64,000 nt of DNA from contig JAJFKX010000034.1 in the NCBI GenBank assembly GCA_021772985.1, positions 62,001 through 126,000 on the forward strand, read 5' to 3'. The position numbers were made by a program, and so were the translations under genes. Below, piece after piece: positions 1,040 through 47,800 of the stretch (positions within the stretch are counted from its first letter, which is position 1; the number at the start of each line of letters is the position of its first letter). The notes beneath the pieces were generated by a model. The model made no database searches. It saw only the letters and a program-made list of their open reading frames with translations, and had not been told where the DNA came from. This DNA comes from Gammaproteobacteria bacterium (GTDB lineage Bacteria > Pseudomonadota > Gammaproteobacteria > Xanthomonadales > Wenzhouxiangellaceae).

Positions 1040-1906
1040 ATGAATATTCCTATTAAGCCAACGGTTATCGCCCTGCTCCTCTGTATTGGAATAACGGCCT
1101 GCCAAAATGAGGCCGATAATAATACCGGCACACCTGCCAGCCAAGATACCGGCAAAACTGAAGCCTCTGCGCAACAGCCCAACACAGAAAATAGCGAAAG
1201 TGCCGTAGCGGAACGGAACCTGATAGCCATGGCATTAGGCTCAGCCAGCCGCACAGCTGCTGATATCGAACGGGATCAGCGAAGCAAGCCTGCAGATGTA
1301 TTGGGTTTATTGGATTTGTCACCCGGTCAGACAGTCATGGATATATTCGGTGGCGGCGGATATTACTCAGAAATCATCGCCCATATAGTTGGACCGGAAG
1401 GTAAAGTTTTACTGCATAACAATCAGCCTTATCTTAATTTTGTCAAAGATGCGCTGGCCGAACGCAAGCAGCGTTTATCACTGCCCCAGCTGGAATATTA
1501 CGACCGCGAAGTGGATGATTTTGGCTTAGCATCTGACAGCCTGGACGCCGCCATGATTATCATGTCATATCACGACCTTTATTATGTAGATCCTGACAGT
1601 GGATGGTCCGCCATAGATAGCCAGAATTTCCTTGAGCAAATCTGCAAAGCTTTAAAACCTGGCGGCAAATTCCTGATTGTTGACCATGCAGCAACTGACA
1701 GCTCCGGCAATACCCATGCACAAACCCTGCACCGAATCGAAGAATCATTCGCTATTCAGGACATCGAAAACAATGGGTTCAAATTGGTTGGCTCATCTGA
1801 TGCGCTGCGCAGTAGCGAAGACGATCACACCATCATGGTGTTTGACGATGCTATCCGGGGTAAAACCGATCGGTTTATTCTGTTATTTGAAAAAAACGCT
1901 GATTAA
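1040..1906 (+). CDS. Class I SAM methyltransferase-like lipoprotein
   Basis: 288 residues. The N-terminus is a lipoprotein signal: hydrophobic segment ending in ITAC, lipidated Cys21, followed by Gln (not Asp), which favours the outer membrane. A Ser/Thr/Gln-rich linker runs to about residue 55. The rest resembles a class I methyltransferase: motif I around VMDIFGGGGYYSEI, an acidic residue after strand 2, and a late LKPGGKFLIVDH strand typical of the fold. The family resembles predicted exported methyltransferases (COG4798 type). SAM is not expected outside the cytoplasm, so the real activity is unclear. The stop codon overlaps that of the convergent FG-GAP gene by four bases. No strong ribosome site is visible. 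Confidence 0.8.
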   Translation: MNIPIKPTVIALLLCIGITACQNEADNNTGTPASQDTGKTEASAQQPNTENSESAVAERNLIAMALGSASRTAADIERDQRSKPADVLGLLDLSPGQTVMDIFGGGGYYSEIIAHIVGPEGKVLLHNNQPYLNFVKDALAERKQRLSLPQLEYYDREVDDFGLASDSLDAAMIIMSYHDLYYVDPDSGWSAIDSQNFLEQICKALKPGGKFLIVDHAATDSSGNTHAQTLHRIEESFAIQDIENNGFKLVGSSDALRSSEDDHTIMVFDDAIRGKTDRFILLFEKNAD

Positions 1907-3456
1907 CCCTCAAAACCATCATTAAGCATGACTTCCGGGTCCGCTGCGACAGTAATGGTCTGATTCGCTGACACATTTGCAAGCACTGTTTGCATGCCAT
2001 TGCTCCAGTCAACCCGCAGTTCATCGATGATGGTCGCTGCACCTAAACCAAAGTGGGCCGAAAGCTCGCTTTGGCTTAGGTAATTACTGCCTCCGTCGAC
2101 CCTCCCGATCAAAGTCCGGCTACCCAGGGTAATGGTAACCACTGAGCCAATACCATTGGGTGCAATATCATTGATACCACTATGATCCAGAAACACCCGT
2201 AGCCAATTGGTATCGGGCGTAGCTAAATCATTGCGGAACAGTTTTACCGAACCGGCATGCGGAAATACGATGATGTCCTGGTCGCCGTCATTATCGTAGT
2301 CAAAATTCGATATCCCACGGCCATCGATGGCATCACCAATTCCAATTGACTGAGCAACTTCATCAAATTCGAGATTACCGCCGTCGGTGATGTTGACAAA
2401 GGCAAAATTACGCCCGTTTTGGGCAGTGGCGATGATATCCACCAGAGTGTCATGATTAAAATCCACCGCTACCGTTCCCCAACCCCAATCTGTATCGTTG
2501 ACACCAGCCGGGTTTGCCTGGTTTTGATAAACGTTGCCGCCCTGGTTGATATACAGATTATTGCTGTTAATGGTGGTTACGTAGAAATCAAAATCGCCGT
2601 CTTCATCCCAATCCGCCACCGTCATGCCCATTTCGGTGCCATCCTGATTGGTATTGGAACTGCTGGTTACATCGGTAAAAGTGCCATCACCATCATTGGC
2701 GTAATAATGCCCGGTGGTAAAATCACCGATCCAGATAAGCTCCGGGAACTGGTCACCATCCATATCTGCAAACCTGGGAGCAAAGCCATTGGTGCCTGCC
2801 AGACTGCCAAGCCCGGCACTGCTAGTCACATCAGTAAAAGTACCGTTGCTGTTATTGCGAAACAACTTGTTGCCATCATTGGTTTCGTTCCAGCCCGAAA
2901 CAGCCAGATCCAAGTCTCCGTCCAGGTCATAGTCGCCCCACGCTGCTCCCCAACCGTCTGGTCCTTGGGCCGAGCTTTGGTTAACACCTGCAGCCACAGC
3001 CACATCAGTAAATGTATTGTTTAAGTTGTTGCGATAAAGCTTGTGATGACCGGCCTCTGCTCCTGCTATCGGTCCTAAGCTGGTAACAAAAATATCCAAA
3101 CGACCATCGCGGTTGTAATCTCCCACCGCAGCTGCGGTAGAACGGTGCTCAAGCGCAATATTCCAGGCACTGGCCTGATCACTGAAAGTACCATCACGGT
3201 TATTGATGTAGAGCTTATCGGCACCATCTCCACCGGCCGGGTAAAACACATCCTGCCAGCCATCGTTATTGAAATCGCCAACCACTCCACCGGCTAAAAA
3301 ACCGGCCATTGCAGTATTGAAACTTGCATTGATTTGACTGCTGCTGGTTTGATCAGAAAATGCACCATTACCTTGTTGCGCTGAAACCTGCATGACTCCA
3401 GCCGAGACTGCAGTGAAGATTAACAATCGTAATATCAATCTGCTGTGAGGTAGCAT
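1903..3456 (-). CDS. Exported FG-GAP/VCBS repeat protein with ASPIC/UnbV domain and GFE tail
   Basis: 517 residues with a Sec signal (MLPHSRLILRLLIF..., cleavage near VSAQ). It contains many FG-GAP/VCBS blades with calcium-loop motifs such as GDFNNDGWQD, GDYNRDGRLD, GDYDLDGDLD and DYDNDGDQD, consistent with a seven-bladed propeller. The C-terminal part, from about NWLRVFLDHSG to VDWSNGMQTV, matches the ASPIC/UnbV domain of the CRTAC1-like family. The protein ends EVMLNDGFEG, one of five GFE-type tails in this window. GGAG lies about 11 bases upstream of the ATG. Likely extracellular or surface-bound and calcium-binding; a partner is not predictable. Confidence 0.88.
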   Translation of the reverse strand: MLPHSRLILRLLIFTAVSAGVMQVSAQQGNGAFSDQTSSSQINASFNTAMAGFLAGGVVGDFNNDGWQDVFYPAGGDGADKLYINNRDGTFSDQASAWNIALEHRSTAAAVGDYNRDGRLDIFVTSLGPIAGAEAGHHKLYRNNLNNTFTDVAVAAGVNQSSAQGPDGWGAAWGDYDLDGDLDLAVSGWNETNDGNKLFRNNSNGTFTDVTSSAGLGSLAGTNGFAPRFADMDGDQFPELIWIGDFTTGHYYANDGDGTFTDVTSSSNTNQDGTEMGMTVADWDEDGDFDFYVTTINSNNLYINQGGNVYQNQANPAGVNDTDWGWGTVAVDFNHDTLVDIIATAQNGRNFAFVNITDGGNLEFDEVAQSIGIGDAIDGRGISNFDYDNDGDQDIIVFPHAGSVKLFRNDLATPDTNWLRVFLDHSGINDIAPNGIGSVVTITLGSRTLIGRVDGGSNYLSQSELSAHFGLGAATIIDELRVDWSNGMQTVLANVSANQTITVAADPEVMLNDGFEG

Positions 3457-3581: not shown

Positions 3582-5369
3582 TTATTGTTCCAATCTTCGA
3601 GTACTTCTACGGTCGGGTATTTTAGGTTGGATTACGGGTGCCAAACCTTCAAAACCATTTTTAAACAATTCGGGGAATATGTCGCCGCCACTCAGTACAA
3701 TTAAATTACCCACATCGTTGGTTCCCGGTGCAACACCATCACCCACCATTTCATTGGTAATAATGTCGATGATGCCATCACCATTTAGATCCCCGTCTGC
3801 ACCACTGTAGGAAAGCGTATCTCCTTCATTGGCACCGTCCCTACCCTTGGCACCATGCACCTCCAGAATTTCGATCTGGCTGGAATCAGGGAAATTTACC
3901 GGCGCCAGATCAGACACCAACGGCCAAAAACCATTTCGCCCCAACAGGATATGCAGGGTACCTCCATTAATGCGCCCAAACGGTGTGGCGTGCGGAGAGG
4001 CAATCGCCAGGTCATCAATGCCGTCACCGTTAAAATCGCCATGCATGGCAGTATCAGCTGCAATCGCGCCATTTACTGGCCCAATCAAAGTTGCCATATT
4101 AAAACCCGCTGGTGGAGAATCCAAATCAAAATCCAGCCCCTTAAGCGTAAAAGCATTGTAAATAATATGACCCAGACCAGCATTAGGCCGGTTAACTGCG
4201 CCAGTGCCGTCAGCCGTCAGATCACCTATAAACAAATCAGCATTGCCGTTGTTGTCGTAATCCAGACCGCCAAGCAGTTCCTCACCAAAAGCATCGTTAT
4301 CATTGCCGCCGTCAATCGCGGTAAAGCTGCCGGGGCCGTTATCAATCACAAAATCCAACACCGGTAACCAATCACCACCAAAATTATCATCCCAGGCGAT
4401 AAACAATGTCCCTTGTGGTGAACCACCTGAGCCATTTCCGCTGCCACCTGGCGGCGGTAATGATGCGCCTGCACGGTTCAGTGTGGTGGCTGCCAGCACT
4501 TCACCCAAACCGTTACCATCCAGGTCTGCGATTTGCACTGTGGCACCAAAGTGGTGGTCAACACTGGGCGCTCGTGGACGGATACGGGCAAGATTGCCGG
4601 GTAAGGCGGTACTACCGAAATCTGCCAGATCGACTGTCTGCGCCATCATCAAATGGCTTCCGCCCCGAATCACATACACTGCCCCGGAATCGGACTGGCC
4701 ACTTTGTGTCTGGCGATCTGCGCCAACCGCGATATCGTCAATATTATCCCCGGTAAGATCGCCATTTCGCGCCCAGATACACAACCGATCAGAGGCATTC
4801 GCACCAACCAGTGTGGTTATTTGCAAATTGGCCGCAGGCGATCGTAAATCGATAACGGTATTGTTCATTGCCAACGTCCGCAATAGTGCGCTACCAGGTA
4901 AAATGCTGATCGCACCGGCACCGATCCGACCTGCTGGTGAGAAATTCTGACGGCAAATCAATAAATCACCCAGACCATCGCCAGTGACATCCGCCATCCA
5001 GATTTCGCTACCCGCATTTTCCTGGCTATGATCACCCCAGATCGTCAGCACCCGCGGGTCATCCACAGCAGTATCAATCTCGCCCTGGATGGTGCCATCA
5101 CCAAATACCAAAAACACCTGCCCAGCACTGGTCCGGCCATCGGGGGAGGCGCGCATAGCAGCAAACGCATAATCCCTGGAACCATCACCATCAACGTCAA
5201 ACCCACCTGCCACCGGCACTCCAGACGAGCCATTGCCAACCGAGCCATATACGCGGCGCAGCGTACCGTCATCAGCATTTACATTAGCCAGGTCAATGGT
5301 TGCAATCGGTTGTGACTGACATTCCAACCCAACCATCATCAGAATAATAACCAGCAGCGTGCGAAGCAT
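3582..5369 (-). CDS. Exported integrin-alpha-type FG-GAP protein with internal GFE motif near the C-terminus
   Basis: 595 residues from the ATG at 5369. I chose this start over ATGs 15 and 42 bases upstream because it directly precedes the signal peptide (MLRTLLVIILMMVG) and has GAGAGG seven to eight bases before it. FG-GAP repeats carry motifs such as GGFDVDGDGSRD, ADVTGDGLGD, GDLTGDNIDD, GLDYDNNGNAD, GDFNGDGIDD and GDLNGDGIID, as in integrin-like propellers. The end contains PELFKNGFEG, the tail motif shared with four other proteins here, but followed by about 19 extra residues rich in Arg and Pro. It lies head to tail with the preceding FG-GAP gene, about 125 bases away, so both may be co-transcribed. 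Confidence 0.85.
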   Translation of the reverse strand: MLRTLLVIILMMVGLECQSQPIATIDLANVNADDGTLRRVYGSVGNGSSGVPVAGGFDVDGDGSRDYAFAAMRASPDGRTSAGQVFLVFGDGTIQGEIDTAVDDPRVLTIWGDHSQENAGSEIWMADVTGDGLGDLLICRQNFSPAGRIGAGAISILPGSALLRTLAMNNTVIDLRSPAANLQITTLVGANASDRLCIWARNGDLTGDNIDDIAVGADRQTQSGQSDSGAVYVIRGGSHLMMAQTVDLADFGSTALPGNLARIRPRAPSVDHHFGATVQIADLDGNGLGEVLAATTLNRAGASLPPPGGSGNGSGGSPQGTLFIAWDDNFGGDWLPVLDFVIDNGPGSFTAIDGGNDNDAFGEELLGGLDYDNNGNADLFIGDLTADGTGAVNRPNAGLGHIIYNAFTLKGLDFDLDSPPAGFNMATLIGPVNGAIAADTAMHGDFNGDGIDDLAIASPHATPFGRINGGTLHILLGRNGFWPLVSDLAPVNFPDSSQIEILEVHGAKGRDGANEGDTLSYSGADGDLNGDGIIDIITNEMVGDGVAPGTNDVGNLIVLSGGDIFPELFKNGFEGLAPVIQPKIPDRRSTRRLEQ

Positions 5370-5673
5370 GGAAAGCCCTCTCATAGAAGTGCGTTTTATC
5401 CAAAAAAGCATTATATACGCAATCTTACGTATTAACTGTCAGCGCCATGTCAACGGTTGGATAATCGGATACCAACGGACGTCGGCCCGGCAACTGATGA
5501 TGAATCCAAAAGATTACTTAATAAAGATTTCTCACCACAGATACGATATATGGCCCAGCTTACTTATCACCGTAATATCTAACTTTTACAGGCAATACCT
5601 TAATTACCAATTACTTAAAATCGATCTGACTGGATTGCATATCTAGATTCCTTTCTGGGCTGATGAACAAGGG
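5370..5673. other. Intergenic, nothing recognised
   Basis: About 300 bases between the FG-GAP gene and the serine hydrolase gene. The short frames crossing it have no ribosome site or domain signature. No clear terminator or promoter was seen. Confidence 0.5.
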
Positions 5674-6999
5674 TTATTCAACTCTAGGCATTCGATAAGT
5701 GCCTCCCCACATCAGCGCTGTGACCGTGCCACTGGGATCGCGCTCAACACCAACACTGGTATAAAGCTGGCGGTAGAAGAATTCATCTTCACCAATCGCT
5801 TCAAGCGGCAAAAAACTACCAATTTGTCCTTTCAGCAAAAGCCCCTCCATACCATTTTTTACTTCGATAACATTGCCCGGAAATATTTCAAAGCGACCCA
5901 CAAAATCCGTCAATTCGGCCTCTGAAATCATATAAGTTGATCGAATTAATGGTGGTATGGCTTTCTCATTAAAGGCAATCGCCGCAACGCCGGCACCAAT
6001 AGCACTTACTGATTCCGATTCAATATTGCTAAGCACAACAACGCAAGTATTACTGTCCGGATAAGCACGAATATGTGCGCTGAACCCTGGGTTTCTGCCT
6101 GATTGTTCTGCATGGCGATGATTATTCTCGTTTCGAGCACCCCACCCATAAAGAAAAATTGGCGATTCCTGATTCAGGAAGTCAGCATTAAATGCCTCAC
6201 ACCATGCCAGCAAGTCACTGGCTGTCGATTTCAACGACCCTGCACCAACTAAAATTGATGGATCATAAGCCGCATTACGCCCAATACCTGATGATCCATA
6301 AGCAGGACTATAACCAAGCGCATCAGCATCATTTCTGAATTCACCTGTCTCCATTAATCCTGCGAGCGGATATACATGCTGTGCCAGATAATCATGGTAT
6401 TTTTGCCCGGATGCCTGTTCGATAACAGCAGCAAGTAATGCATAACCTGAATTGCTATAAGCATTGTCGGACCCTGGTTCATAATCCAGTGGTTTGGGGC
6501 CCAGCCATTCAGCCAGCTCACCCAGCGATATTTCACGAGCAGAATATTCTGAAACGTCAGGCAACGCCCAGTAATCTGGAACACCAGATGTGTGCTCCAA
6601 AAGATGAGCAATAGTTATCTTTCCTGCATTAGGGAAATTGGGAAGATACTTTGCTAGTGGGTCATCGAGTGATACCTGTTGTTGTGCCATCAAATGCCTG
6701 ATCGCAGTTGCAGTAAACGTTTTGGTTATTGAAGCAATATGAAAACTTGTATGAAGACCAATAGCTTCCCGCCTATCAAAATCCGCAAACCCGAAAACCA
6801 CTTCACCGGTTATTTTTCCGTGCTGTGAAACTGCGATAACACCGGAAAAATCTTTATTGATATAAAACGGTTTAACAAACTCCTGTAGTTTTACATTATG
6901 TCCATGCTCGACAACTGCAGTCGCGGCCGGTTTGCAACCCGATAACATAATTACCACAAAACCATACAACAAGAACTTACCGTACTGGTGCGCAATCAT
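5674..6999 (-). CDS. Serine hydrolase lipoprotein of the class C beta-lactamase/PBP4* type
   Basis: 441 residues with a lipoprotein signal (lipobox LSGC, Cys22). The beta-lactamase/DD-peptidase-like domain shows Ser90-Ile-Thr-Lys93 (SxxK nucleophile motif) and Tyr181-Ser-Asn183 (YxN), with LLEHTSGVPDY between them as usual in this family. GRNPGFSAH is a candidate for the third motif. A small beta domain follows (about residues 350-441). Members act on peptidoglycan peptides, esters or D-amino-acid peptides, so the substrate cannot be named. Its ATG overlaps the stop of the TetR gene by four bases (ATGA), so both form one translationally coupled unit, probably under the dyad at 7678-7703. Confidence 0.87.
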   Translation of the reverse strand: MIAHQYGKFLLYGFVVIMLSGCKPAATAVVEHGHNVKLQEFVKPFYINKDFSGVIAVSQHGKITGEVVFGFADFDRREAIGLHTSFHIASITKTFTATAIRHLMAQQQVSLDDPLAKYLPNFPNAGKITIAHLLEHTSGVPDYWALPDVSEYSAREISLGELAEWLGPKPLDYEPGSDNAYSNSGYALLAAVIEQASGQKYHDYLAQHVYPLAGLMETGEFRNDADALGYSPAYGSSGIGRNAAYDPSILVGAGSLKSTASDLLAWCEAFNADFLNQESPIFLYGWGARNENNHRHAEQSGRNPGFSAHIRAYPDSNTCVVVLSNIESESVSAIGAGVAAIAFNEKAIPPLIRSTYMISEAELTDFVGRFEIFPGNVIEVKNGMEGLLLKGQIGSFLPLEAIGEDEFFYRQLYTSVGVERDPSGTVTALMWGGTYRMPRVE

Positions 7000-7677: not shown

Positions 7678-7703
7678 ATAAGAATAAGAATTCTGATTCT
7701 TAT
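7678..7703. promoter_or_regulatory. Probable TetR operator (inverted repeat)
   Basis: A perfect inverted repeat ATAAGAAT-N10-ATTCTTAT, with an inner palindrome AGAATTCT, starts eight bases before the preferred ATG of the TetR gene. Position and symmetry fit an autoregulatory TetR site controlling the regulator and the coupled serine hydrolase. Binding is inferred. Confidence 0.65.
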
Positions 7704-8054
7704 CATATCAATTGCTGAATACCAGTCAAGGCCCGCACAGCTTCGACTACATCCAATGACCCGGGACAACAAGTAGAAACACTAGCTGCTTAAACGGCTG
7801 CTAGGTGAAAACCGTAAGGATTAAACCAGAACCAGAAACAGAGCCCATCAAATAGCTATGCGATATTTAACCGCAACTGATTTTGCCCTCGTCATATAAA
7901 TGCCAAATCACCATCACTACGGGCGATCCAGGTAACCACCTGTTTAAATTGGACCAAGCCTGATGCCCCGTCTTACATGAGGTAAAACCTGAATTCCCTG
8001 TTCAAGCCTCACTCAGCCCTGAACAAGAATGCTTCACACTAATACCTAACTGAA

Positions 8055-8083
8055 TTGACAAAATTTTAACATTATAGTAAAAC
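8055..8083 (+). promoter_or_regulatory. Candidate promoter for a leader RNA or the sigma operon
   Basis: TTGACA at 8055-8060, 17 bases, then TAAAAC at 8078-8083. TATAGT at 8073-8078 is closer to the -10 consensus but leaves only 12 bases of spacer. Seen by eye only; the transcript would begin near 8090 and reach the hairpin at 8298 after about 200 bases. Confidence 0.35.
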
Positions 8084-8297
8084 CACATAATACTCATAAT
8101 AAAACAAAGTGCCATATCGAGAACTGGCGGCATGATCGAAATAATGAAGCGATTACCGATTGTTTTTTCCACTTTTGAGTTTCAATAGTGGGTTTTGGTT
8201 TGTACGCGCGAGTGTAGATTTATTTTAAAAAATATATTCAGTGTCTGGCTCGCCACGTGTCGGGCGCTGATAACACCCTCAGTTAACCGCGTACATC

Positions 8298-8330
8298 GCC
8301 CCGATGGCTCTGCCGTCGGGGCAATTTTTT
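8298..8330 (+). terminator. Rho-independent terminator or attenuator upstream of the sigma gene
   Basis: A perfect stem GCCCCGA (8298-8304) with TCGGGGC (8316-8322), an 11-base loop, then AATTTTTT. It lies about 150 bases before the sigma factor start and points toward it, so it may end a small RNA or attenuate the operon. No gene lies immediately upstream on the plus strand. Confidence 0.6.
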
Positions 8331-8480
8331 CAGTATCGGGCTGATCTGGGAAGCCAACAAACCACCTGAGAGAAAAATTCCTGACCAAGACAAATCAAGA
8401 ATTTTTTTATCTGACTTGCTTTGCCGACATCACCCGGCAACAATTAACTTCTAAAAACTGACTTCAGGCCACTTACACCT

Positions 8481-9044
8481 GTGCCGAAATATGCTTCCGA
8501 TCAGGATTTGATTGCCGCTGTCTGCGCTGGATGCGAACAAGCTGCACATACCTTTTTTACTCGTTATCGCCCTTTGACTGCAGGCTTGGCAGTTGGACGC
8601 TTCAAATTTTCCGATACCGAGGTAGAAGACCTTTTCAATCAACTGATCATGATCTTATGGCAACGCGATTTTCATGCCTTGCGAGCATGGCGTGGCCGCG
8701 GGCGGTTTTCGACCTATTTAACCGTGATAGTGTTGAACTTGTGTCATCGGCAACTGAAAACCGAATCCAGAACCCAGCCTCTGGATGAACAGCAGCTTGC
8801 CCAACAAGTTTCCACCGAACCCAGCCCGGAACAACATGCAGCGAGCTGCCAGGACAGAATGCAACTGGAACAGGTTTTGGCTGAATTGTCGGCACGTGAT
8901 CGTTTATTGATCAAGCTGCGTTACCATGATGACTGCTCCCCGCAACAAATTGGACAAGTCCTGGGCATAACAGGTGGCTCCGTTCGCAAAGCGGTTTTTG
9001 ATGCTTTGCGACGGCTGCGTAAACGCTGGCCGGACTTAGCATGA
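8481..9044 (+). CDS. ECF-type RNA polymerase sigma factor
   Basis: 187 residues from a GTG. Region 2 covers about residues 20-80 (FFTRYRPLTAGLAVGRF, LMILWQRDF-like segment, RGRGRFSTYLTVIVLNLC). Region 4 is a C-terminal helix-turn-helix (LSARDRLLIKLRYHDDCSP...QIGQVLGITGGSVRKAVFDALRRL). There is no region 3, as in ECF factors. It directs polymerase to an unknown promoter set, probably including its own operon and perhaps the exported protein at 12.5 kb. The next gene, 81 bases downstream, is a membrane anti-sigma factor. The ribosome site is weak, so the start is not certain. Confidence 0.87.
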   Translation: MPKYASDQDLIAAVCAGCEQAAHTFFTRYRPLTAGLAVGRFKFSDTEVEDLFNQLIMILWQRDFHALRAWRGRGRFSTYLTVIVLNLCHRQLKTESRTQPLDEQQLAQQVSTEPSPEQHAASCQDRMQLEQVLAELSARDRLLIKLRYHDDCSPQQIGQVLGITGGSVRKAVFDALRRLRKRWPDLA

Positions 9045-9125
9045 TGTAACGCCACAATTGGTTGCGACTCTCATTAAATATGCTTGACCCAGCCCTAGAC
9101 CGCCAAATAATGAAAGAACCCGTCA

Positions 9126-10046
9126 ATGACCAACTATGAACAACGATTAAAAAAGTTATTCCAGGCTTCCCAGACAAGCCTGGAAACGCATGAACCAGAT
9201 ATTGAAGTACTTGCAGCGTTTGTCGATGGCGCTTTGAAGCCACGTGAACGGCAGCAGATGCTGACCCATCTGTCCGATTGTGAAGCGTGTCGCAAACTGG
9301 TGATAGCAGCCTCGGAAGAAGTCAGCCAGCCGGTGGTCGTCGCCAAACCGAAACGACGCCCATGGTGGCAGCTGAATTGGTGGGTGCCGGCTTTGGCAGG
9401 CACTGCAGCTGCCGCAGCAGCAGTGCTTATTTTTATCCAACCAGAGCAGGATAAACCTGCTGGATGGTTCCATACAGCACCATCATTGGCTTTTGCTGAT
9501 GTCTGGCAAAACACTTCAGGTAATACTTATCGCAGCATTGGCACTGATGTAGTGATAGCACCATTGAGCCCGCGCTGGTCGGTGGCTGAAAGCCTGACAC
9601 CCAAACTGACCTGGAAATCCAACAGCAACCAGCCATTACACAATGCCGAGATTCTGATTATTGATGAAAACCAGGCATTGGTTACCAGTTGGAAGCCAAT
9701 GGAAGTCGCTGGAAAGACAGTATGGCCGGATACCTTGCCGGCATTAGAGCCTGATAGAACTTATGCCTGGAAAATCAGCTACTGGACTGAGGACCGCCCG
9801 CACACTAGTATATTTGTCCCCTTTCGCACGCCTTCTGAGCAAATTTCGTCACCGACCGCCAACCAAAACCTGCAACAACAATTACAGAACTTTATCACTT
9901 CCGGCCAGTTCGGCAAGGCGTTCTCACTGTGCCTGCAACGCCAGGCAGAATTGCCTGAACAAACCTATCAAGCAATGATCAACGAGTTAAGTCAACGTAT
10001 GCATCTAAGCCCCGGAGAGCAAGCACTGCTGGGTATCAAGCTGTGA
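9126..10046 (+). CDS. Zinc-finger (ZAS) transmembrane anti-sigma factor
   Basis: 306 residues. The N-terminal cytoplasmic domain has the zinc-binding anti-sigma pattern: His22, then His48-x3-Cys52-x2-Cys55 (HLSDCEAC), with FVDGAL before it as in zf-HC2 domains. A basic stretch (KPKRR) precedes one membrane helix at about residues 86-104, placing residues 105-306 in the periplasm. That part holds a fibronectin-like beta domain (about 130-230: LTPKLTWKSN, LEPDRTYAWKISYW) and a C-terminal helical segment. It should hold the upstream sigma factor inactive. Its stop overlaps the GTG of the CHAT gene by four bases. Proteolysis of the outer domain would be the expected release route. Confidence 0.85.
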   Translation: MTNYEQRLKKLFQASQTSLETHEPDIEVLAAFVDGALKPRERQQMLTHLSDCEACRKLVIAASEEVSQPVVVAKPKRRPWWQLNWWVPALAGTAAAAAAVLIFIQPEQDKPAGWFHTAPSLAFADVWQNTSGNTYRSIGTDVVIAPLSPRWSVAESLTPKLTWKSNSNQPLHNAEILIIDENQALVTSWKPMEVAGKTVWPDTLPALEPDRTYAWKISYWTEDRPHTSIFVPFRTPSEQISSPTANQNLQQQLQNFITSGQFGKAFSLCLQRQAELPEQTYQAMINELSQRMHLSPGEQALLGIKL

Positions 10047-12367
10047 CAACCCGCCACCAGTTGGCGGCAGTGCTGGTGTTTTGCTCAATCTTGGGAGTCA
10101 TTTCAGCAACACAAGCGGAACCACCGTTGGATGCCCTGGGCAAACAGTATTTAACCCAGGCACGACAGCTGATCAGGGCTACCGAATTTGAACAAGCATG
10201 GATACAGCTGAACTGGGCAAAACAATATTTTGAAGAACACGGTGATATCGATGGGCATATCGAAACGCTGATTGCCACCGCAGATTATTACGCCAATAGT
10301 GGTGGTGGTCAGCAGGCCCACCAAGCTTTAGACCAGGCCAAGGCGCTGGCACGCGAGCAGCAGCGGCCGCTGTTGCTGGCTGCCGCACTCAGACAGTCCG
10401 CACAATATCTGGCTGGGGATCAAAACTTTGTTGCAGCCTGGCAGGCTTTGGATGACGCCCGTGTTATTTTCGGTGAATTAGAGCTGCACGAAAAGTTACT
10501 GGAACTGGATGCCTTTGCCAGCCTGCTGGCTTCCCGCCAGGGAGATCACCAAAAAGCAGCTGAACTGGCTGCAGCTGCTATCCCGCCATTGCAGGCAGCT
10601 GGTAACCAGCGGATGGAAATGAATGCTTTGGCGGTACTTGCTTACAGCCAACAGCGCTTGGGGGATTATCCGGCTGCGCTGATGAGCTATCAAAGTCTGA
10701 TACCAAAGGCCTGGGCATTGAATGACCAGCTGCAATTAAACAGTGCCTATTGCACCATTGCCGAGGTCAAACGCCAGTTGGGTATGGATACAGCTGCTGA
10801 ATCAGATTTACGCCATGCTATTGAATCCCTGAGCAAAGCCCGCCAGCGTTTGCCGCGAACACCGCAAGAACGAAGCATTTTCGTTGAACAACAAATTCTG
10901 GCCTTTTCCCGGCTGGCTGAGTTGCTGGTTGACAGTTATCGCAGCGATGAAGCACTGGACCTTATCGAACAATTCCGTGCGCAAGCGTTTTTCGATAACC
11001 TGGCATTGGTGGAAGTCAGCCGCCAACACGATATCGAACCATCGTTGCGCAGCCGTGAACAAGCTTTATTGCGTGCGTTGGCGGAAGCGCAGCTGGCCAA
11101 CGCCGAACTGCGACCCACACAACCTATCGATGACCTGGAAGCCGATATTCAAACCTTACGTGCTGACTATTGGCAACGTCACGGGATTGCCCCCGCAGTT
11201 GCACGGCAAGGTGTCAGCATCAATAAAATTCAGGCTTTGCTGGCAGTTGATGAGGCAGCAATCAGCTATTGGACCCTGGCAGATAGAGTATTGGCCTGGG
11301 TAATTACCAATGAAAAAGTGGAGTTTGCCAATATTCCAGTCAGCGAAACCGACTTGCATAACGCAGTAACCCAATTTGTGGCGCCTCTGAAGTGGCCGTG
11401 GCTGGCACGCGACCAGGCGATCAGCGGTAACGAACAACAGCATATTCAAACCGGCAGCAAACTGTATCGTTGGCTGATCGATTCCCTGCCCGGCACGGCT
11501 CACAGTGCAGCACGCTGGATTATTATCCCAGACGGCATAATGAATGCGCTGCCATGGTCAGCATTGATTCGCGACTGTGCTGCGACGGCAGATGATCAGA
11601 ATCGAATTCATGGCATCTATTCAGGCTGCCACTACCTGATCGAAGAGCATACATTGCGCTATAGCTCCTCACTTTCTGCGCTGGTGCAATTGCGTCAGCG
11701 CAACCTTCAGCAAACCGAAGTCAGAGAAGATTCAGCACTGGTGCTGGCACCTAATTTTGATGCCTATGACAAACTGCAACTGGCACCACTACCGGCGGCA
11801 GTACGTGAAGTCAAGCACCTGGAGCAATGGTTCGACCACACTCAGCGATTACTTGGTGATGACGCCAGCGAAGCTCGTTTCAAGCAACAAGCCGGTCAAT
11901 TCAAAATAATTCACCTCGCCACACATGGTTTGATCGAAGAAAATTACCCGCTCAGTTCCGGTGTGCTATTAAATCCGGGGGAACAAGACGATGGTTTACT
12001 GCAAGCCCACGAAGTATTAGCCCTGAAACTGGATGCCAATCTGGTTACGCTGGCCGCATGCCGCTCAGCGGATGGTAAATTCAGCCGGGCTGAAGGATTG
12101 GTTGGACTGAGCCAGGCATTTTTATACGCCGGTGCGGATACCGTTCTGGCCAGCATTTGGGATTTACAGGATGCCCATAGTGCTACTTTGCTGCAACCGT
12201 TTTACCAGTCGAGACATACAGGCCTGGGCAATGATCAAGCTTTACGTGAAGCACAGTTGGGCATGTTGCACAGCCAGGGCATGGAGTTACTGGTGACCCA
12301 GCCGGTGCTGACCAGTTTCGCGCACCCGCGTTTTTGGGCCGGTTACCGCTTAATCGGCGCACCTTAA
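10043..12367 (+). CDS. Exported TPR-CHAT (caspase-like) protein
   Basis: 774 residues from a GTG that overlaps the anti-sigma stop. A Sec signal (cleavage near ATQA, about residue 25) predicts export to the periplasm. Residues about 30-300 are tetratricopeptide-like helical pairs; a linker follows. The C-terminal third is a CHAT domain with the caspase-like dyad His628 (HLATHG) and Cys673 (TLAACRS), plus GLVGLSQAFLYAGADTVLASIW and a terminal ARFWAGY-like segment (PRFWAGYRL), all typical of CHAT. Both catalytic residues are present, so it is probably an active cysteine peptidase. Coupling to an anti-sigma factor whose outer domain lies in the same compartment suggests a regulatory protease; the substrate is inferred. 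Confidence 0.88.
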   Translation: MTTRHQLAAVLVFCSILGVISATQAEPPLDALGKQYLTQARQLIRATEFEQAWIQLNWAKQYFEEHGDIDGHIETLIATADYYANSGGGQQAHQALDQAKALAREQQRPLLLAAALRQSAQYLAGDQNFVAAWQALDDARVIFGELELHEKLLELDAFASLLASRQGDHQKAAELAAAAIPPLQAAGNQRMEMNALAVLAYSQQRLGDYPAALMSYQSLIPKAWALNDQLQLNSAYCTIAEVKRQLGMDTAAESDLRHAIESLSKARQRLPRTPQERSIFVEQQILAFSRLAELLVDSYRSDEALDLIEQFRAQAFFDNLALVEVSRQHDIEPSLRSREQALLRALAEAQLANAELRPTQPIDDLEADIQTLRADYWQRHGIAPAVARQGVSINKIQALLAVDEAAISYWTLADRVLAWVITNEKVEFANIPVSETDLHNAVTQFVAPLKWPWLARDQAISGNEQQHIQTGSKLYRWLIDSLPGTAHSAARWIIIPDGIMNALPWSALIRDCAATADDQNRIHGIYSGCHYLIEEHTLRYSSSLSALVQLRQRNLQQTEVREDSALVLAPNFDAYDKLQLAPLPAAVREVKHLEQWFDHTQRLLGDDASEARFKQQAGQFKIIHLATHGLIEENYPLSSGVLLNPGEQDDGLLQAHEVLALKLDANLVTLAACRSADGKFSRAEGLVGLSQAFLYAGADTVLASIWDLQDAHSATLLQPFYQSRHTGLGNDQALREAQLGMLHSQGMELLVTQPVLTSFAHPRFWAGYRLIGAP

Positions 12368-12510
12368 TGGCAGCTGCAACCAGTACTCATAAAACCCACG
12401 GTTGTTCTGCTCTTTCATCGTCGCAACCCGGTTTTTCCACAATCACTACATAACTGGTAACGCAAGCCTCTTTCACTGCTCTTATTGACAGGTTAACTAA
12501 TGAGGTGTGC

Positions 12511-15500
12511 ATGATGCGGGGCTTAATTCTAGGTGTATTTTGGATCCTGGCTGGATCAGTATCGGCTGCTGTTGAAGTGATCAAGGATTTCGATCCGGTA
12601 ATGCTGCAACGCCCGGATTTAGATCTGACTTATCACAACATGCCCGAGGCCATAGCGGCCGGTAGCCAGCAATCCGCATTGCGCGCTGTCACTATTGGTG
12701 ATTTCAATACTGATGGCCGACAGGATATTTTAGGCATCACTGCAGGCGGTCAAGTAGTGTTACTGAAGGGTAATCCCACACACCCAAATTACAATACTCG
12801 CATTGATCACTGGCAAGCATTTGCGGCACCTGAAACAGTTGATCTTCGACTGACCAGCGGTGGTTTGCTGGGACTGGAAAGTGGTGATTTTAACGCCGAT
12901 GGTTTACTCGACTGGGCAGCCGCTTATGCACAGGGACACGTAAACTTTTATCAGGGCGACGGTACTGGTGCATTTGTATGGCTTCGCCGTTTACATTTTG
13001 ATGGCGAGTTGGTCGCCATACACAGTGGTGATTACGGCAGGCGTGATAATTTAACCGATATAGCGCTGATCAGCACCAACGCCGGTGCGCATTTGCTGCA
13101 CCTGCTGACTTCCCGAAATGGCGCGGCAGCAGCCCCCATAAAAACGCAGATGCTTACCCATCCGGCCACAAATATCGTAGCCGGTCGTTTCGATGACGAT
13201 ATTCACTACGACCTTGCCATTGCCGGAGGAACTTCACTGAGTATCTATGCAGTTCCCGATAGTTTACCGGCGCGTGTGATTCAGCAAGTCAATTTACCCA
13301 TGACAGCTAAGGGACTGAACTTTGCAAAGCGTGGCCAGCTGCTGGTTGCCGGCAGTGATACAGGTTTTTGGGACATCAATACCATTGGCCATACACGGCA
13401 TAACGACAATAGTTCCAATACGCCAATAATGACTTCCGGGCAAAGCTATTATTTTCGAATTGATGGTGACGCCCTTAAAGACAGGCTGCTGCTTGATCAA
13501 GCCGGCGGCATCAGCATAGCCTTTGCACGATCTGCGCTATTTGCTACTTTCGGGGTGGACAGCACCGGCGATAGCGGCGACGCACTACCCGGTGACGGCA
13601 GCTGTTCAGCAACCGGTGGTGGCTGTACATTGCGTGCCGCAATCGAAGAAAGTAATGCTTCAGCCGGTATGGATATGATCACTGTCACAGTAGCCGGCAC
13701 CACCGTACCGTTGACGCCTTACACCATTACCGATCCGGTTATCATTGATGGAACCGGCGGCAGCACCGTGATCGAACAGGGTTCAACCGAAGGTCCGGGT
13801 GTCGGAATCAAACCAGTATTCGCAATTTCAGCAGGCGGCACAACCATTCGTGGCCTGACTGTTATGGGCCCGGATGGCGATTCTTTTGCACGTCTCACCA
13901 GTGGTGACGGCAACCTGTTTACCGGCAATGTCTTTGCTATTACCGATTCCACCAACTTTGGTGGTTTTGAAATTGAAACAGCGGACAATATTATTGGCGG
14001 CACCACAGTCAGCGAACGAAATATCTTTGCCGGGGTGATTTTTGATATTGATGGCGGCACCATTGATACCGCTACCGGCAACCGCGTTATCGGTAATTAC
14101 TTCGGTGTTGATGCAGGCGGCGCCAGCCGGCTTGGCACAGGTTCGTGTGTAGCAGTCAGAGATCGCGACAATGAAATCGGCGGATCGGTTGCCGGCAGTG
14201 GCAATGTGATCACCGGGTTCGACGGCATGAGTTTACTGTGCATCCCGTTGCGGGTGGAACGTTTCGGTGAATCACTCGGCACACTGGTTCAAGGCAATAT
14301 GATTGGCACCAACGCGGCCGGCACTGCTGCCATCGGCAACCCGACTCAAGGCATACTTGTCTCAGATGCTCGGGATGTAACGATTGGTGGTTCCACACCG
14401 GCGGCTGGTAACCTGATATCAGGTAATGGCAATGCCATATTGAACGGCAACGAACACGGCATCCATGTCACTGCTGCGACATCACGAGGCGATGGTTTGG
14501 TTATCCAGGGAAATTATATCGGCACGGATATTACCGGTAGCACCGCCATCGGTAATACCGGTCACGGGGTTTTTATCGATGATGTCGACGGCAGTCTGAT
14601 CGGCGGCTCATCAGCAGGGGCTGGAAACCTGATTTCGGGCAATGGTGAAGATGGTATCCATCTGGAAGGCTTTAGTGGTTTTTCATTGGCTGCACCACGT
14701 ATCCAGGGTAACCGCATTGGTATTAACCTGGCTGCTGACAGCGCCCTGGGCAATACTGGTGATGGCTTGCACCTGTTGTTTGTCGATGATGCTCAAATCG
14801 GTGGCACCACTGCAGCCGCAGGCAACTTGATCGGTGCCAATACCGGCAACGGAATAATCCTGGAAAGCCCGGGTTCACGCCGAAACATCATCGAAGGCAA
14901 CCACATCGGCACTGCAACTGACGGGCAAACCGATCTTGGTAACGGTGAGCATGGTATCCGTGTTTTTTCTGCTCAGATGGGCCGTATCGGTGGTGTTGCA
15001 AACGGTGCCGGCAACCGTATCGCATTTAATGCATTGGCAGGAATTGCGGTGCAGGGCCTTGGTTCATTTGGACGTGAAAATCAGATTACACGGAACCGAA
15101 TCCATGACAATGTTGGTCTGGGCATTGACCTGGTTGGCAATGGCGTTGTCGATGTCAACGATCCGGGTGACACTGATGCAGGGCCAAATCTGGGGCAAAA
15201 TTTTCCGGAAATCACTGCCCTAACCGGCGGCGATATGCTTACCGGCTCACTCAACAGTGCCGCCAGCAGCACATTTACCATTGAGTTTTTCAGCAGTACC
15301 AGTTGTGATGCCAGTGGCAATGGTGAAGGCGGTGTATTTGTTGAAAGTATCTCTGTCACAACCAATGCTGCCGGTGATGCCGGTATTACTCATACCTTAA
15401 GCGCACCGATACCTGAAGGACTGCAACTGACTGCCACTGCCACCGATGCTGATGGAAATACATCAGAGTTCTCGGAATGTATCAGCGTGGTTGATTCTGA

Positions 15501-15528
15501 AGTGTTTTTAATTGATGGATTTGAGTAA
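12511..15528 (+). CDS. Exported CSLREA-like/right-handed beta-helix protein with N-terminal FG-GAP part and GFE tail
   Basis: About 1005 residues. I prefer the ATG at 12511 (or 12514) over the GTG at 12505 because GAGG ends at 12505. A signal peptide is followed by FG-GAP-like motifs (GDFNTDGRQD, GDFNADGLLD) to about residue 330, then a CSLREA-like segment (GDGSCSATGGGCTLRAAIEES), where the usual C-x-LREA reads CTLRAA. Parallel beta-helix turns follow, with repeats of the type IGGTxxxxGNLISGNxxxGI and VIQGNYIGTD. After a final beta domain the protein ends EVFLIDGFE. It is likely surface-exposed or secreted. It lies 140 bases after the CHAT gene on the same strand and may be an output of the sigma module. 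Confidence 0.85.
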   Translation: MMRGLILGVFWILAGSVSAAVEVIKDFDPVMLQRPDLDLTYHNMPEAIAAGSQQSALRAVTIGDFNTDGRQDILGITAGGQVVLLKGNPTHPNYNTRIDHWQAFAAPETVDLRLTSGGLLGLESGDFNADGLLDWAAAYAQGHVNFYQGDGTGAFVWLRRLHFDGELVAIHSGDYGRRDNLTDIALISTNAGAHLLHLLTSRNGAAAAPIKTQMLTHPATNIVAGRFDDDIHYDLAIAGGTSLSIYAVPDSLPARVIQQVNLPMTAKGLNFAKRGQLLVAGSDTGFWDINTIGHTRHNDNSSNTPIMTSGQSYYFRIDGDALKDRLLLDQAGGISIAFARSALFATFGVDSTGDSGDALPGDGSCSATGGGCTLRAAIEESNASAGMDMITVTVAGTTVPLTPYTITDPVIIDGTGGSTVIEQGSTEGPGVGIKPVFAISAGGTTIRGLTVMGPDGDSFARLTSGDGNLFTGNVFAITDSTNFGGFEIETADNIIGGTTVSERNIFAGVIFDIDGGTIDTATGNRVIGNYFGVDAGGASRLGTGSCVAVRDRDNEIGGSVAGSGNVITGFDGMSLLCIPLRVERFGESLGTLVQGNMIGTNAAGTAAIGNPTQGILVSDARDVTIGGSTPAAGNLISGNGNAILNGNEHGIHVTAATSRGDGLVIQGNYIGTDITGSTAIGNTGHGVFIDDVDGSLIGGSSAGAGNLISGNGEDGIHLEGFSGFSLAAPRIQGNRIGINLAADSALGNTGDGLHLLFVDDAQIGGTTAAAGNLIGANTGNGIILESPGSRRNIIEGNHIGTATDGQTDLGNGEHGIRVFSAQMGRIGGVANGAGNRIAFNALAGIAVQGLGSFGRENQITRNRIHDNVGLGIDLVGNGVVDVNDPGDTDAGPNLGQNFPEITALTGGDMLTGSLNSAASSTFTIEFFSSTSCDASGNGEGGVFVESISVTTNAAGDAGITHTLSAPIPEGLQLTATATDADGNTSEFSECISVVDSEVFLIDGFE

Positions 15529-44652: not shown

Positions 44653-44843
44653 TATAACCGCCCTGCTGTAAATATTTTTCGAGCCACATGACCAGCCAGC
44701 AAGTTTAATTATTCCTCCTATCAACACACATTTATGCTGCGTTTACCCCGTTCGTCGCGGAATCAGCCCGCTGGTCAGCTTGCCCATTGCGGTGCAATCC
44801 AAGCGATGCTTACATGACATTCTCTTGGCATGGATTAAACCAC

Positions 44844-47800
44844 ATGAACAAAAAGCCGAGTGTCTATTTCTCAAGAACTTTGCTGCTCTGCTGTTTATTG
44901 TTCAGCTGCACGCTGAGTTGGGCCGCTGGAGCCCGATTGTATAAATCAGGTCCAATCCAAATCACTGCCGATGGCGCCAGTGTTTGGTTCGTCAATCAGG
45001 ACAATGATTCTGTTGGACATCTAAATACCGCAACGCTGGCAATCACTGAATTTCCGCTGCCGGATATCGGTATAAAACATACCCCATTGGGAATTGCTGT
45101 CAGTGATGATGGCAACCAGATTTGGGTAAGCTGCCGTGACAGTGACCGTGTATATCTGCTGGACGGCAGTGATGGCTCAATCGATGCCAACATCAACCTG
45201 CCCTGGGGCACCGGGCCTTATTCAATTGCGCTTGCACCTCCACAAAGCGGCCAGCAAAACCATGCCCTGGTGACTGGTTTTCGCAGTGGCGAATTGATCA
45301 GCATTAACACTGCCAACCGTACTATCGCTGGTAGTACACATGGAGCTCTGGCGCCCGCAGGCATGGTATTTGCCGATGATCAAAGCGTCTGGATCACTCA
45401 TCTGTTTGCCTTTGGTGAGCACAGTCGGCTCAGCCGGGTCGATTTCAGCAACCCGGCAGCACCGGTTATCACGACTTTCCAGCGCGTAACCGCTGTGCAA
45501 CCACAACAAAGCGGCGATACCAGTCCACGGCCAGCTGAAGGCGGATATGTAACCTTGCGCGGGCACCCAGCGCAAGTTCCAGGTGGTGCCGACAACGGTC
45601 GTATCTGGTTACCAGTGCAGTACCAGAATATCCATAACCAGCAACCCGGGCCAGATGCCGCCATCCAGTCCGTGATTCGTAAAGTTAATCCGGGCACCCG
45701 GGTTTTGGTTGCCGGCAATAACCTGACTAGCAATCCGGAACACCCCGCCAAAATTATCTTTACAGCAACCGAAGTTCATGACCCGACCTCATCCGGCAAT
45801 AATCCTACTTATGACGGCTCCGGCTGGAACGCCCAGGTATCAGGCCCTGTGGATCTGGCCTTCTCCAGTGATGGTTCACTTGCCTATCTGTTGCACGAAC
45901 AAAGTGAAGATCTGCTGATTGTTCCGACCAACACCACGCCGATAAAGCCGGTCGCAGCCAGCCCATTGGTTGAAATTGGAGTTGGCCGGCGCCCTACCGG
46001 CATTGTCACTTCACCAGTTGATGACCGGGCTTTTGTTTTGAATACATTATCCCGCAGCATTTCAGTTATTAATCTGGCGACCCAATCAGTCACCAATCAG
46101 CTGGCTGCCACACCGATAACAAGCGAACCGTTCAGTTCCCAGCAATTGCGAGGTGCTGAAATTTTTCATTCCTCCAATGAAGATGCCATTTCACTGAATC
46201 GGAAAGTTGCATGTGCTTCCTGCCATATCAATGCGGAACACGACGGCCGTAGCTGGGACAATAATTTTCTGACCGGTGTCACCAGCGGACCACGTGAAAC
46301 CATGACCATGCTAGGTGCTGGAGCAAGCTTCGGTCCGGTTGATCCAGCGACAGGTTTTGGCCAGCTGCATCGTTCCGGTGATCGCGATGAAGTACAGGAT
46401 TTCGAACACACCCTGCAGGGTGATCGCATGAATGGGCAAGGTTTTCTAGGTGCTGCAGTAAATCCAAGCCTGGGAATCGCCAATAGCGGCCTGAGCAACG
46501 ACCTGGATGCATTATCGGCTTATACCCTTGGCTTGCCTGCTATTCCGCGCAGCCCATACCGTAATGCCAACGGCTCGCTCACCGAGGCAGCCGTTCGGGG
46601 AGCTGTGATGTTTCGAGGCAGTAACTCTGGTAGCCCAGCCGATGCAGGCTGCGCAAGTTGCCATGTTCCCGCAACTGGATTTACCGATCAGCAATTTCAC
46701 GATGTCGGGCAAATGGTTGTTCCCGGCGAACAGGAACTGCAAAACCGTAATCCACCCAATCATGTTAATACCCCATCGCTGACCGGTGTATGGGCTACCC
46801 CCCCATATAACGGCGTTACCCAGTTCGATCTTCCAGATATGATTTCCACTCTGCTGAACTTTGCCAACCGCCCAGGCGCCCGTGCGCCCCACGGCAGCCT
46901 GGCCGGACTAACCGGCAAACAGCTGGGTGATTTGTCTGCATTTGCACTATCCATTGATGGTGATATGACTGCTGCCGAAGTGAACACTGCAGCAGACCTG
47001 ATAGCACCACGTATACAGCGGGTAGTAGCCACTGGCCCGGAACGTCTGGAAATTTGGTTTAATGAAAGCGTCTCGCAAACAGATGTTGAAAACCTGTCTG
47101 CATGGTCTATTACGCATACATTTGATGGTTCACCAGTGGCCATCACAGGTGCCGTGTTCGATACCCAGAATGGCGACCGGGTAACGCTTAATGTAGACCG
47201 TTTCTCAATTCACTGCGGCACTGTGCAATATGCCTTGCAACCGATCGGGCCAATTTCTGACCTGGCTGGCGACACCAGCAGTGGTACTGCAAACACTTTA
47301 CAAAATGGAGCGCCGTTTCTATTTGAAGTTGGCGAAATCCTGGATATCAAGCTGGGCGCATCAGGCTACGAAAACATTACTGTCCCGGTACACGATGCCA
47401 GCGTGCTTTCCGGTCTGACCAGCTGGAGCCACGGATCAATGTGGTTCGGCCGTGCCGGTTCTATCGCCACCACCGCGTTTGTGCGTTTTGATTGGCGAGA
47501 TGCATTTGCTGCCGCCACCGGGGTTACCGATAGCAGCCAGATTCTCGAAACCAAGTTTACTTTAACACCTTACCTGGGCGACCTGGTCACGCTAGAGTTC
47601 CGTCGCGTACTGCAACAATGGCACGACCATCGGGGCAGCGATTTCAACAGCAATCCGATAGATCCAATTACCGGCCACGGTGGCCCCACCTGGAATGAAA
47701 GTGAACGCAATGTACGCTCCTGGAACATGACCAATGCTCGAGCGACCACAGCCGGTGTGCAAGGCGATCAGCCCAGCGATTATTTCGGTACTGATGATAC

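Follow-up and report, generated by a model that had tools for sequence, protein, structure and literature searches.

A 64,000-nucleotide stretch of a Wenzhouxiangellaceae genome (assembly GCA_021772985.1, contig JAJFKX010000034.1, positions 62,001 to 126,000; hereafter the window, within which coordinates are counted) carries three co-directional genes that encode an extracytoplasmic function (ECF) sigma factor, a transmembrane zinc-finger anti-sigma factor with an apparently Ig-like periplasmic part, and an exported-type TPR-CHAT protein whose catalytic His and Cys are both present. We read these genes as one two-compartment switch, in which the exported CHAT protein would cut its anti-sigma partner and thereby free the sigma factor, and assign this reading a probability of about one half. 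The observation behind it seems new: among the matches listed in a search of the order, none of 13 informative full-length anti-sigma factors of this Ig type occurs without an adjoining CHAT or CHAT-like TPR gene. From this point on, loci and genomes other than the window are referred to by L and G numbers. The features of the unit are the following.

8481 to 9044, plus strand: ECF sigma factor, 187 amino acids (TIGR02937, E-value 6.7e-26)
9126 to 10046, plus strand: transmembrane zinc-finger anti-sigma factor, 306 amino acids (zf-HC2, 2.3e-7; family profile match to DdvA, 8rot_B)
9210 to 9293, plus strand: cytoplasmic zinc anti-sigma domain, residues 29-56, with H48, C52 and C55 (Pfam zf-HC2 stretch)
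9381 to 9437, plus strand: single transmembrane helix, about residues 86-104 (hydrophobicity)
9561 to 9833, plus strand: putative periplasmic Ig/FN3-like beta domain, about residues 146-236 (strands of a low-confidence model, weak fold matches)
9852 to 10040, plus strand: anti-sigma C-terminal helical tail, residues 243-305 (model helices, alignment)
10043 to 10046, plus strand: GTGA stop/start overlap of the anti-sigma and CHAT genes (sequence; similar overlap in relatives)
10043 to 12367, plus strand: exported-type TPR-CHAT protein, 774 amino acids (PF12770, 8.2e-63; model fold)
10043 to 10117, plus strand: signal-peptide-like N-terminus of the CHAT protein (hydrophobic stretch at residue 4)
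10130 to 11023, plus strand: TPR-like helical repeats, about residues 30-327 (model helices; TPR fold matches)
11450 to 12358, plus strand: CHAT peptidase domain, residues 470-772 (Pfam stretch)
11924 to 11926, plus strand: catalytic His628 codon (sequence, alignment)
12059 to 12061, plus strand: catalytic Cys673 codon (sequence, alignment)

The genes, their coordinates and their domain matches bear out what the first-pass annotation had proposed for this region, namely a sigma factor, a zinc-binding anti-sigma (ZAS) factor with one membrane helix and a TPR-CHAT protein. That annotation had further described the three as one overlapping unit, which is correct for the anti-sigma and CHAT genes, joined by the four bases GTGA, but not for the sigma and anti-sigma genes, which lie 81 bases apart. 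The sigma factor also matches Sigma70_r4 (9.4e-12). In the anti-sigma factor, the motif H48-x3-C52-x2-C55, read from the sequence, together with the adjoining ECF gene places the protein among the ZAS factors; the zinc ligands are lost in two relatives (L146 and L150). A single hydrophobic helix at about residue 86 is followed by approximately 200 residues. The beta domain within this part, as modeled with low confidence, finds Ig, FN3 and CopC-type folds at E-values of 1e-3 to 1e-2, none being below 1e-3, and its Pfam matches to Ig_Rha78A_N (0.0019) and DUF928 (0.0041) both fall short of the cut-offs, for which reason DUF928 was rejected as a name for the domain. The helical tail, modeled with a predicted local distance difference test (pLDDT) score of about 80, is shared with L054 alone among the seven sequences of an alignment.

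The CHAT protein begins with MTTRHQLAAVLVFCSILGVISATQA, which is signal-peptide-like as judged by hydrophobicity only. The earlier claim of an intact active site was confirmed, as H628 (within ATHGL) and C673 (within AACRSA) are invariant in all 22 CHAT proteins of a hand-chosen alignment. The model of the protein (pLDDT 83.8) has Csx29/Craspase, DdvA and separase as its nearest folds. Its TPR-like part consists of helices with fold matches to LGN and other TPR proteins, and Pfam TPR models reach only E-values of 0.14 and 0.42. As far as sequence tells, the protein is exported rather than cytoplasmic, as had been supposed, with N-termini of export type here and in most of the related proteins inspected; the start of the L054 protein reads like a signal peptide, yet lies under the hydrophobicity threshold. 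L150 and L156 show weak PDZ matches, under cut-offs, at the CHAT protein N-terminus.

The pairing was examined from the anti-sigma side with a profile built from seven anti-sigma factors of the layout designated type A. This layout comprises a sigma gene, a gene for a transmembrane, Ig-type anti-sigma factor (with the zinc motif kept in most) and a CHAT gene, and is found in the window, L054, L058, L060, L144, L146, L150 and L156. Searching 338 genomes of the order with this profile, at most eight candidates being scored per genome, gave at least 15 near-full-length matches, the shortest spanning profile positions 20-158; further full-length matches are possible. Among the matches listed, to which the counts below also refer, a sigma gene adjoins all 15, and a CHAT domain is encoded next door in 11, co-directionally in 10 cases and convergently in one (L192). 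In L186 and L187 the contig end truncates the next frame, so that any catalytic CHAT part would lie beyond it, and the visible remainder agrees with the TPR region of the TPR-CHAT profile (5e-93 and 2e-85, respectively). The contigs of L188 and L189 end too soon, leaving 13 informative loci of the 15. By contrast, only one (L198) of 23 loci with partial-match anti-sigma factors has a CHAT gene, this set being 24 loci (20 plus 4) from which L193 was dropped as its contig ends at the gene. Against 1/23, Fisher's test gives 6e-9 for 13/13 and 4e-8 for the 11/11 in which the CHAT domain itself is seen. For an unbiased count, eight loci (the seven profile builders and L146, a near twin of one of them) were excluded, which leaves 5/5 (6e-5), or 3/3 with the CHAT domain seen (0.0015). 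Because full-length Ig-type matches pair with CHAT and partial matches rarely do, the presence of CHAT follows the periplasm-facing part of the anti-sigma factor.

A four-base overlap of the anti-sigma and CHAT genes (GTGA, ATGA or TTGA), with starts as read by eye, occurs in 8 of 12 co-directional pairs: the window, L054, L058, L146, L150, L156, L186 and L190. Two of these are ambiguous, with an alternative in-frame start further up in L150 and an alternative further down in L186. L198 has the overlap as well; in L060 it is 11 bases long, and L144, L187 and L191 have none. Stop/start coupling of this kind typically links partners that are produced in matched amounts. Many weaker matches to the profile hit only the Ig part (positions ~118-203) inside long frames. 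Five such frames were inspected, of which L173, L179 and L181 are subtilase-like by eye, and L176 and L185 carry repeated Ig-type stretches.

In a second layout, designated type B, a sigma gene is followed by a gene for a zinc-less transmembrane anti-sigma factor, usually a gene for a small secreted protein, and a CHAT gene (L008, L036, L037, L039, L041, L043, L063 and L067, as well as L066 and L151, where no small gene was seen). The corresponding reverse search matched 3 of 340 genomes, too few to count: G000, with the known loci and a remnant, G208 (L116, already known) and G231 (L112, where the CHAT gene is divergent and adjoins the sigma gene). The remnant (L229, G000:C59:14798-15034) is a type B anti-sigma gene in the same genome with two stop codons. 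As for the small protein, L008 encodes one of about 200 residues, of secreted type, at 5104-5691, just upstream of its type B CHAT gene. The same place is occupied in L007, L035-L039, L041, L063-L065 and L067, in many cases by a protein with NPNVxCGxxGRP and a GSG-rich tail; none of the three tested (L008, L036 and L067) matches a Pfam family over cut-off. A role as substrate or inhibitor of CHAT is possible.

Counted from the CHAT side, a sigma gene lies on the same strand within 6 kb of four of the six CHAT genes that this genome contains (the window, L008, L009 and L010), against a chance expectation of about 0.065 per gene (44 region-4 hits in 4.85 Mb; P for four of six about 2e-4). The clustering of sigma and CHAT genes is not by chance. 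In L010 the sigma gene comes after CHAT; of the other two loci, L007 lies near a contig start and L011 encodes a long CHAT protein with neither an N-terminal hydrophobic stretch nor a sigma gene. Over 43 genomes of the family, 16 of 25 CHAT genes over cut-off have a same-strand sigma gene within the same distance, a count that includes the fused frame L042, possibly an assembly fault, and five of the nine others have less than 2 kb of upstream sequence. In L042 one frame (1490-3265) joins the sigma factor to the CHAT C-terminus; the genes are separate in the related G031 (L043), and the fusion is probably an assembly or deletion artefact. With L054, which is of another family, the figure is 17/26, versus 7/67 class-wide (Fisher 3e-7), two of the seven sigma matches being very weak. 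The class-wide sample comprises 67 of the 74 matches above 100 bits outside this genome, from 369 genomes, the other seven and weaker matches being left out. CHAT loci of Acidobacteria and Armatimonadia (L055-L057, L059 and L061) yielded no ECF gene by profile. A pairing rule for CHAT genes in general was rejected because a sigma partner is present in only these 7/67; the rule holds for the Ig-type anti-sigma.

A search of 398 genomes of the order for CHAT relatives outside this genome returned 14 with E-values of 1e-28 or better. Seven of these lie beside or close to a sigma gene on the same strand: L054, L144, L146, L058 and L150 (type A), L151 (type B) and L154 (with a kinase). The two best, L054 and L144, show the full order of sigma factor, zinc-finger membrane anti-sigma factor and CHAT, so that the gene order, whose conservation the first-pass annotation had singled out as a check, is kept in relatives. 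In the closest, L054 (a Lysobacterales metagenome bin, JABAAB010000007.1), the three genes, their order and the four-base overlap are all the same as in the window, at 63% identity for the sigma factor, 39% for the anti-sigma factor and 57-58% for CHAT. A tree built from 110 CHAT domains joins the window protein to L054 (100/100) and places the pair outside the main clade of seven type A members, the deep forks being open. Since sigma-linked CHAT genes fall in several lineages of this tree, the coupling would appear to be old or to have arisen more than once. The minimum number of changes is at least 4 for type A (shuffled, 10.7) and at least 13 for other sigma-linked genes (shuffled, 18.7). 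Changes are thus fewer than in shuffled trees; with the deep forks open, a single origin of all sigma-linked CHAT genes is not supported.

The type A anti-sigma profile matches residues 7-91 of PDB entry 8rot_B ('CHAT domain-containing protein') at 6.9e-7 and 8rlz ('Antisigma factor DdvA') at 0.0011; the window anti-sigma factor alone reaches 0.072 and 0.019, and the window CHAT domain matches 8rot_B 856-975 at 0.007. To judge from these matches, DdvA is a natural fusion, with an anti-sigma factor and TPR-CHAT in one solved chain. Foldseek places the window CHAT model near DdvA, listed there as a 'transmembrane anti-sigma factor' (8rot, 1.1e-13; 8rw5, 5e-14), with separase behind both and four Csx29/Craspase chains ahead of the better DdvA structure. 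VIA aligns it with DdvA 401-991 (Z 20.6, 528 residues, root-mean-square deviation 10.7) and ranks DdvA behind Csx29/Craspase, separase and several TPR proteins. The link between CHAT and anti-sigma factor that had been suggested for the window is strengthened by DdvA, which has both in one chain; the cleavage itself we infer.

The DdvA-DdvS system of Myxococcus xanthus shares with the window an ECF partner, an anti-sigma domain, a membrane helix and the TPR-CHAT fold. It differs in that TPR-CHAT is on the same chain there, whereas the window has two genes with a four-base overlap, an anti-sigma factor with an Ig-like domain of its own, and an intact His/Cys dyad. The CHAT region of DdvA is reportedly periplasmic, and autoproteolysis followed by RseP is said to have been proposed for it. 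Csx29/Craspase, the best Foldseek and VIA match, likewise has a TPR-CHAT peptidase fold with a His/Cys dyad. According to PMC10028731, Csx29 cleaves Csx30, an inhibitor of the ECF-like CASP-sigma, so that there, as in the window, an inhibitor holds a sigma factor. Csx29 is described there as acting on Csx30 within an RNA-guided Cas7-11 complex (type III-E CRISPR), whereas the window CHAT protein has an export signal, by hydrophobicity, and its putative inhibitor crosses the membrane. No Cas gene, Cas7-11 (gRAMP) included, was found among 14 window proteins scanned, a whole-genome search for it not having been made. A membrane anti-sigma factor with a periplasmic part beside an exported protease-fold enzyme is also what RseA-DegS-RseP is reported to have; the enzyme there is a serine protease, whereas that of the window combines a cysteine-peptidase fold with TPR, and its site-1 role is putative. 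DegS and RseA are also mentioned in PMC10028731. For ECF54 sigma factors, PMC8999054 reports CHAT proteins in a conserved genetic context without an anti-sigma factor and proposes proteolytic control; the window resembles them in having CHAT in an ECF context and differs in having an anti-sigma factor. Among the literature matches listed, none describes an exported CHAT protein that is encoded separately and pairs with an anti-sigma factor, a scope outside which lie most of the subscription literature, the work on DdvA and the reclassification of ECF sigma factors, the last of which may describe such contexts. We read the window as a split, trans-acting and, by its dyad, catalytically intact relative of DdvA that also resembles Csx29-Csx30-CASP-sigma. 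The split trans form, with an intact dyad and an Ig-type anti-sigma factor, is apparently new. This form is easier to test than DdvA because the enzyme, with its intact dyad, and the presumed substrate are distinct proteins, and because the unit occurs in named Wenzhouxiangella records (XN79A, which is L058 and apparently an isolate, and KhS).

In the proposed mechanism, the cytoplasmic zinc domain of the anti-sigma factor would hold the ECF sigma factor at the membrane, and the exported TPR-CHAT protein, as its dedicated partner, would dock on the periplasmic Ig-like domain, with the stop/start overlap presumably causing both to be made in matched amounts. A signal felt by the TPR part would turn the CHAT active site on, CHAT would cut the periplasmic part of the anti-sigma factor (site 1), and RseP would then cut within the membrane (site 2) to free the sigma factor. 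One M50 gene, of RseP type (PF02163, 1.1e-68), is present in this genome. If the switch reading is right, bacterial caspase-like proteases would act as dedicated periplasmic triggers of transcription, beyond CRISPR complexes. More tentatively, exported TPR-CHAT proteins might make up a protease class of their own, acting at site 1 in the periplasm under the control of a signal and plugging into diverse ECF membrane regulators; these could include zinc and zinc-less anti-sigma factors in trans, membrane Ser/Thr kinases and DdvA-type fusions. Such proteases would be a separase-like equivalent of DegS, the Ig-like domain matching each to a single partner.

Several observations weigh against the cleavage switch. 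The structure model of the anti-sigma factor as a whole is poor (pLDDT 59). L198 has a CHAT gene though its profile match is partial; its periplasmic part is Ig-like by eye. In L145, the third best CHAT relative by E-value, the only sigma gene is on the opposite strand, 2.4 kb away. No shared sigma-dependent promoter upstream of the operons rose above shuffled sequences, and a sigma-70 promoter scan was near chance (13 found versus a mean of 8.5, standard deviation 3.5). The pattern [LVIYMFQ]R[SNGATQ] occurs in 14 of 15 type A linkers after the membrane helix (5.1 expected by shuffling), and in 10 of 13 linkers of the other anti-sigma group. Of the 20 control linkers, however, 15 have it too (7.0 expected), many of which read YRTLS, and 19 of the 20 control loci are without CHAT. 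Because anti-sigma factors without CHAT also carry the motif, [LVY]R[small] in the linker was rejected as a CHAT cut site.

Two further points on that side, the kinase loci and the unlinked CHAT genes, bear on an alternative that we consider unlikely, in which CHAT is an output: the sigma factor would switch on its own operon, and the targets of exported CHAT would be other proteins of the envelope or surface, perhaps the product of the exported fourth gene. Between the sigma factor and TPR-CHAT, L154 and L114 have a membrane Ser/Thr kinase with DUF4384 in place of the anti-sigma factor, an arrangement compatible with an input module that can be plugged in as well as with a shared output. In L010 and L069 the CHAT gene precedes the sigma gene, and six CHAT genes of the order (L147-L149, L152, L153 and L155) lie in a different context with no same-strand sigma gene; the next gene in L147 encodes a ShlB/FhaC transporter. 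Against this alternative, CHAT tracks the Ig-type anti-sigma factor (of 13 informative loci, the domain is seen in 11 and a partial frame in 2, against 1/23), a stop/start overlap ties the two genes together, DdvA fuses the two proteins, and the fourth gene is unconserved in L054. Somewhat less probable still is that CHAT is a non-cutting partner, which would bind the Ig-like domain and shield or expose a site for a general site-1 protease, much as RseB reportedly does for RseA. A shared site-1 protease would allow the linker arginine motif to be common to anti-sigma factors without CHAT, and the active site of DdvA is said to be incomplete, so that CHAT may act there without cutting, which also counts against the cleavage switch; a mere binder, on the other hand, would not need the His and Cys that are invariant in the 22 aligned proteins. 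An anti-phage switch like Csx29 or DdvA, with the sigma factor driving defence genes, is improbable: the folds closest to the CHAT protein include Csx29/Craspase and DdvA, and DdvS controls a defence island according to PMC12288465, but the four genes match no PADLOC model at 0.01, eight of ten neighbours scanned within the window match nothing at 1e-5, matches of a methyltransferase to mad2 and of an ABC ATPase to mad3, mad8 and AriA are taken as family-level similarity, and no clear defence gene is among the 14 window proteins scanned.

The fourth gene follows CHAT after 137 bases.

12505 to 15528, plus strand: exported-type FG-GAP/NosD-like beta-helix protein, the fourth gene (NosD, 1.6e-7; FG-GAP_3, 6.1e-6)

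The first-pass annotation had taken this beta-helix protein for an output of the switch. At the same place in L054 stands an unrelated protein, also of exported type, with weak LTD and C39-like matches, and a conserved output was rejected on this one close relative; because it is unconserved there, the fourth gene is probably not part of the core unit. Its product ends in ...VFLIDGFE. Long proteins ending in ...DGFE or ...DGFEG are encoded in the window at 12505-15528, 44787-48083 and 1903-3456. Genome-wide, the pattern DGFE plus stop codon occurs 8 times, versus 0 for the reversed pattern, and for four of these, inspection of the short loci confirmed that they terminate long frames, two of the four being window genes. 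The shared ending resembles a C-terminal signal.

Upstream of the sigma gene there is a strong terminator-like hairpin on the plus strand (8298-8322), with no obvious plus-strand gene before it; an Rfam scan of 7700-8600 gave a sole match, far under threshold. Directly after the CHAT gene, L147-L149 and L152 have a second long frame, which in L147, the one tested, is a two-partner transporter of the ShlB/FhaC type. The anti-sigma factors of L193-L196 (G003, G005, G001 and G007), near which no CHAT was found, have tails with one to three copies of an LFxSDFGG/VFxDSFGG-like motif; these resemble the ends of exported proteins and are perhaps decoys that sense their sorting.

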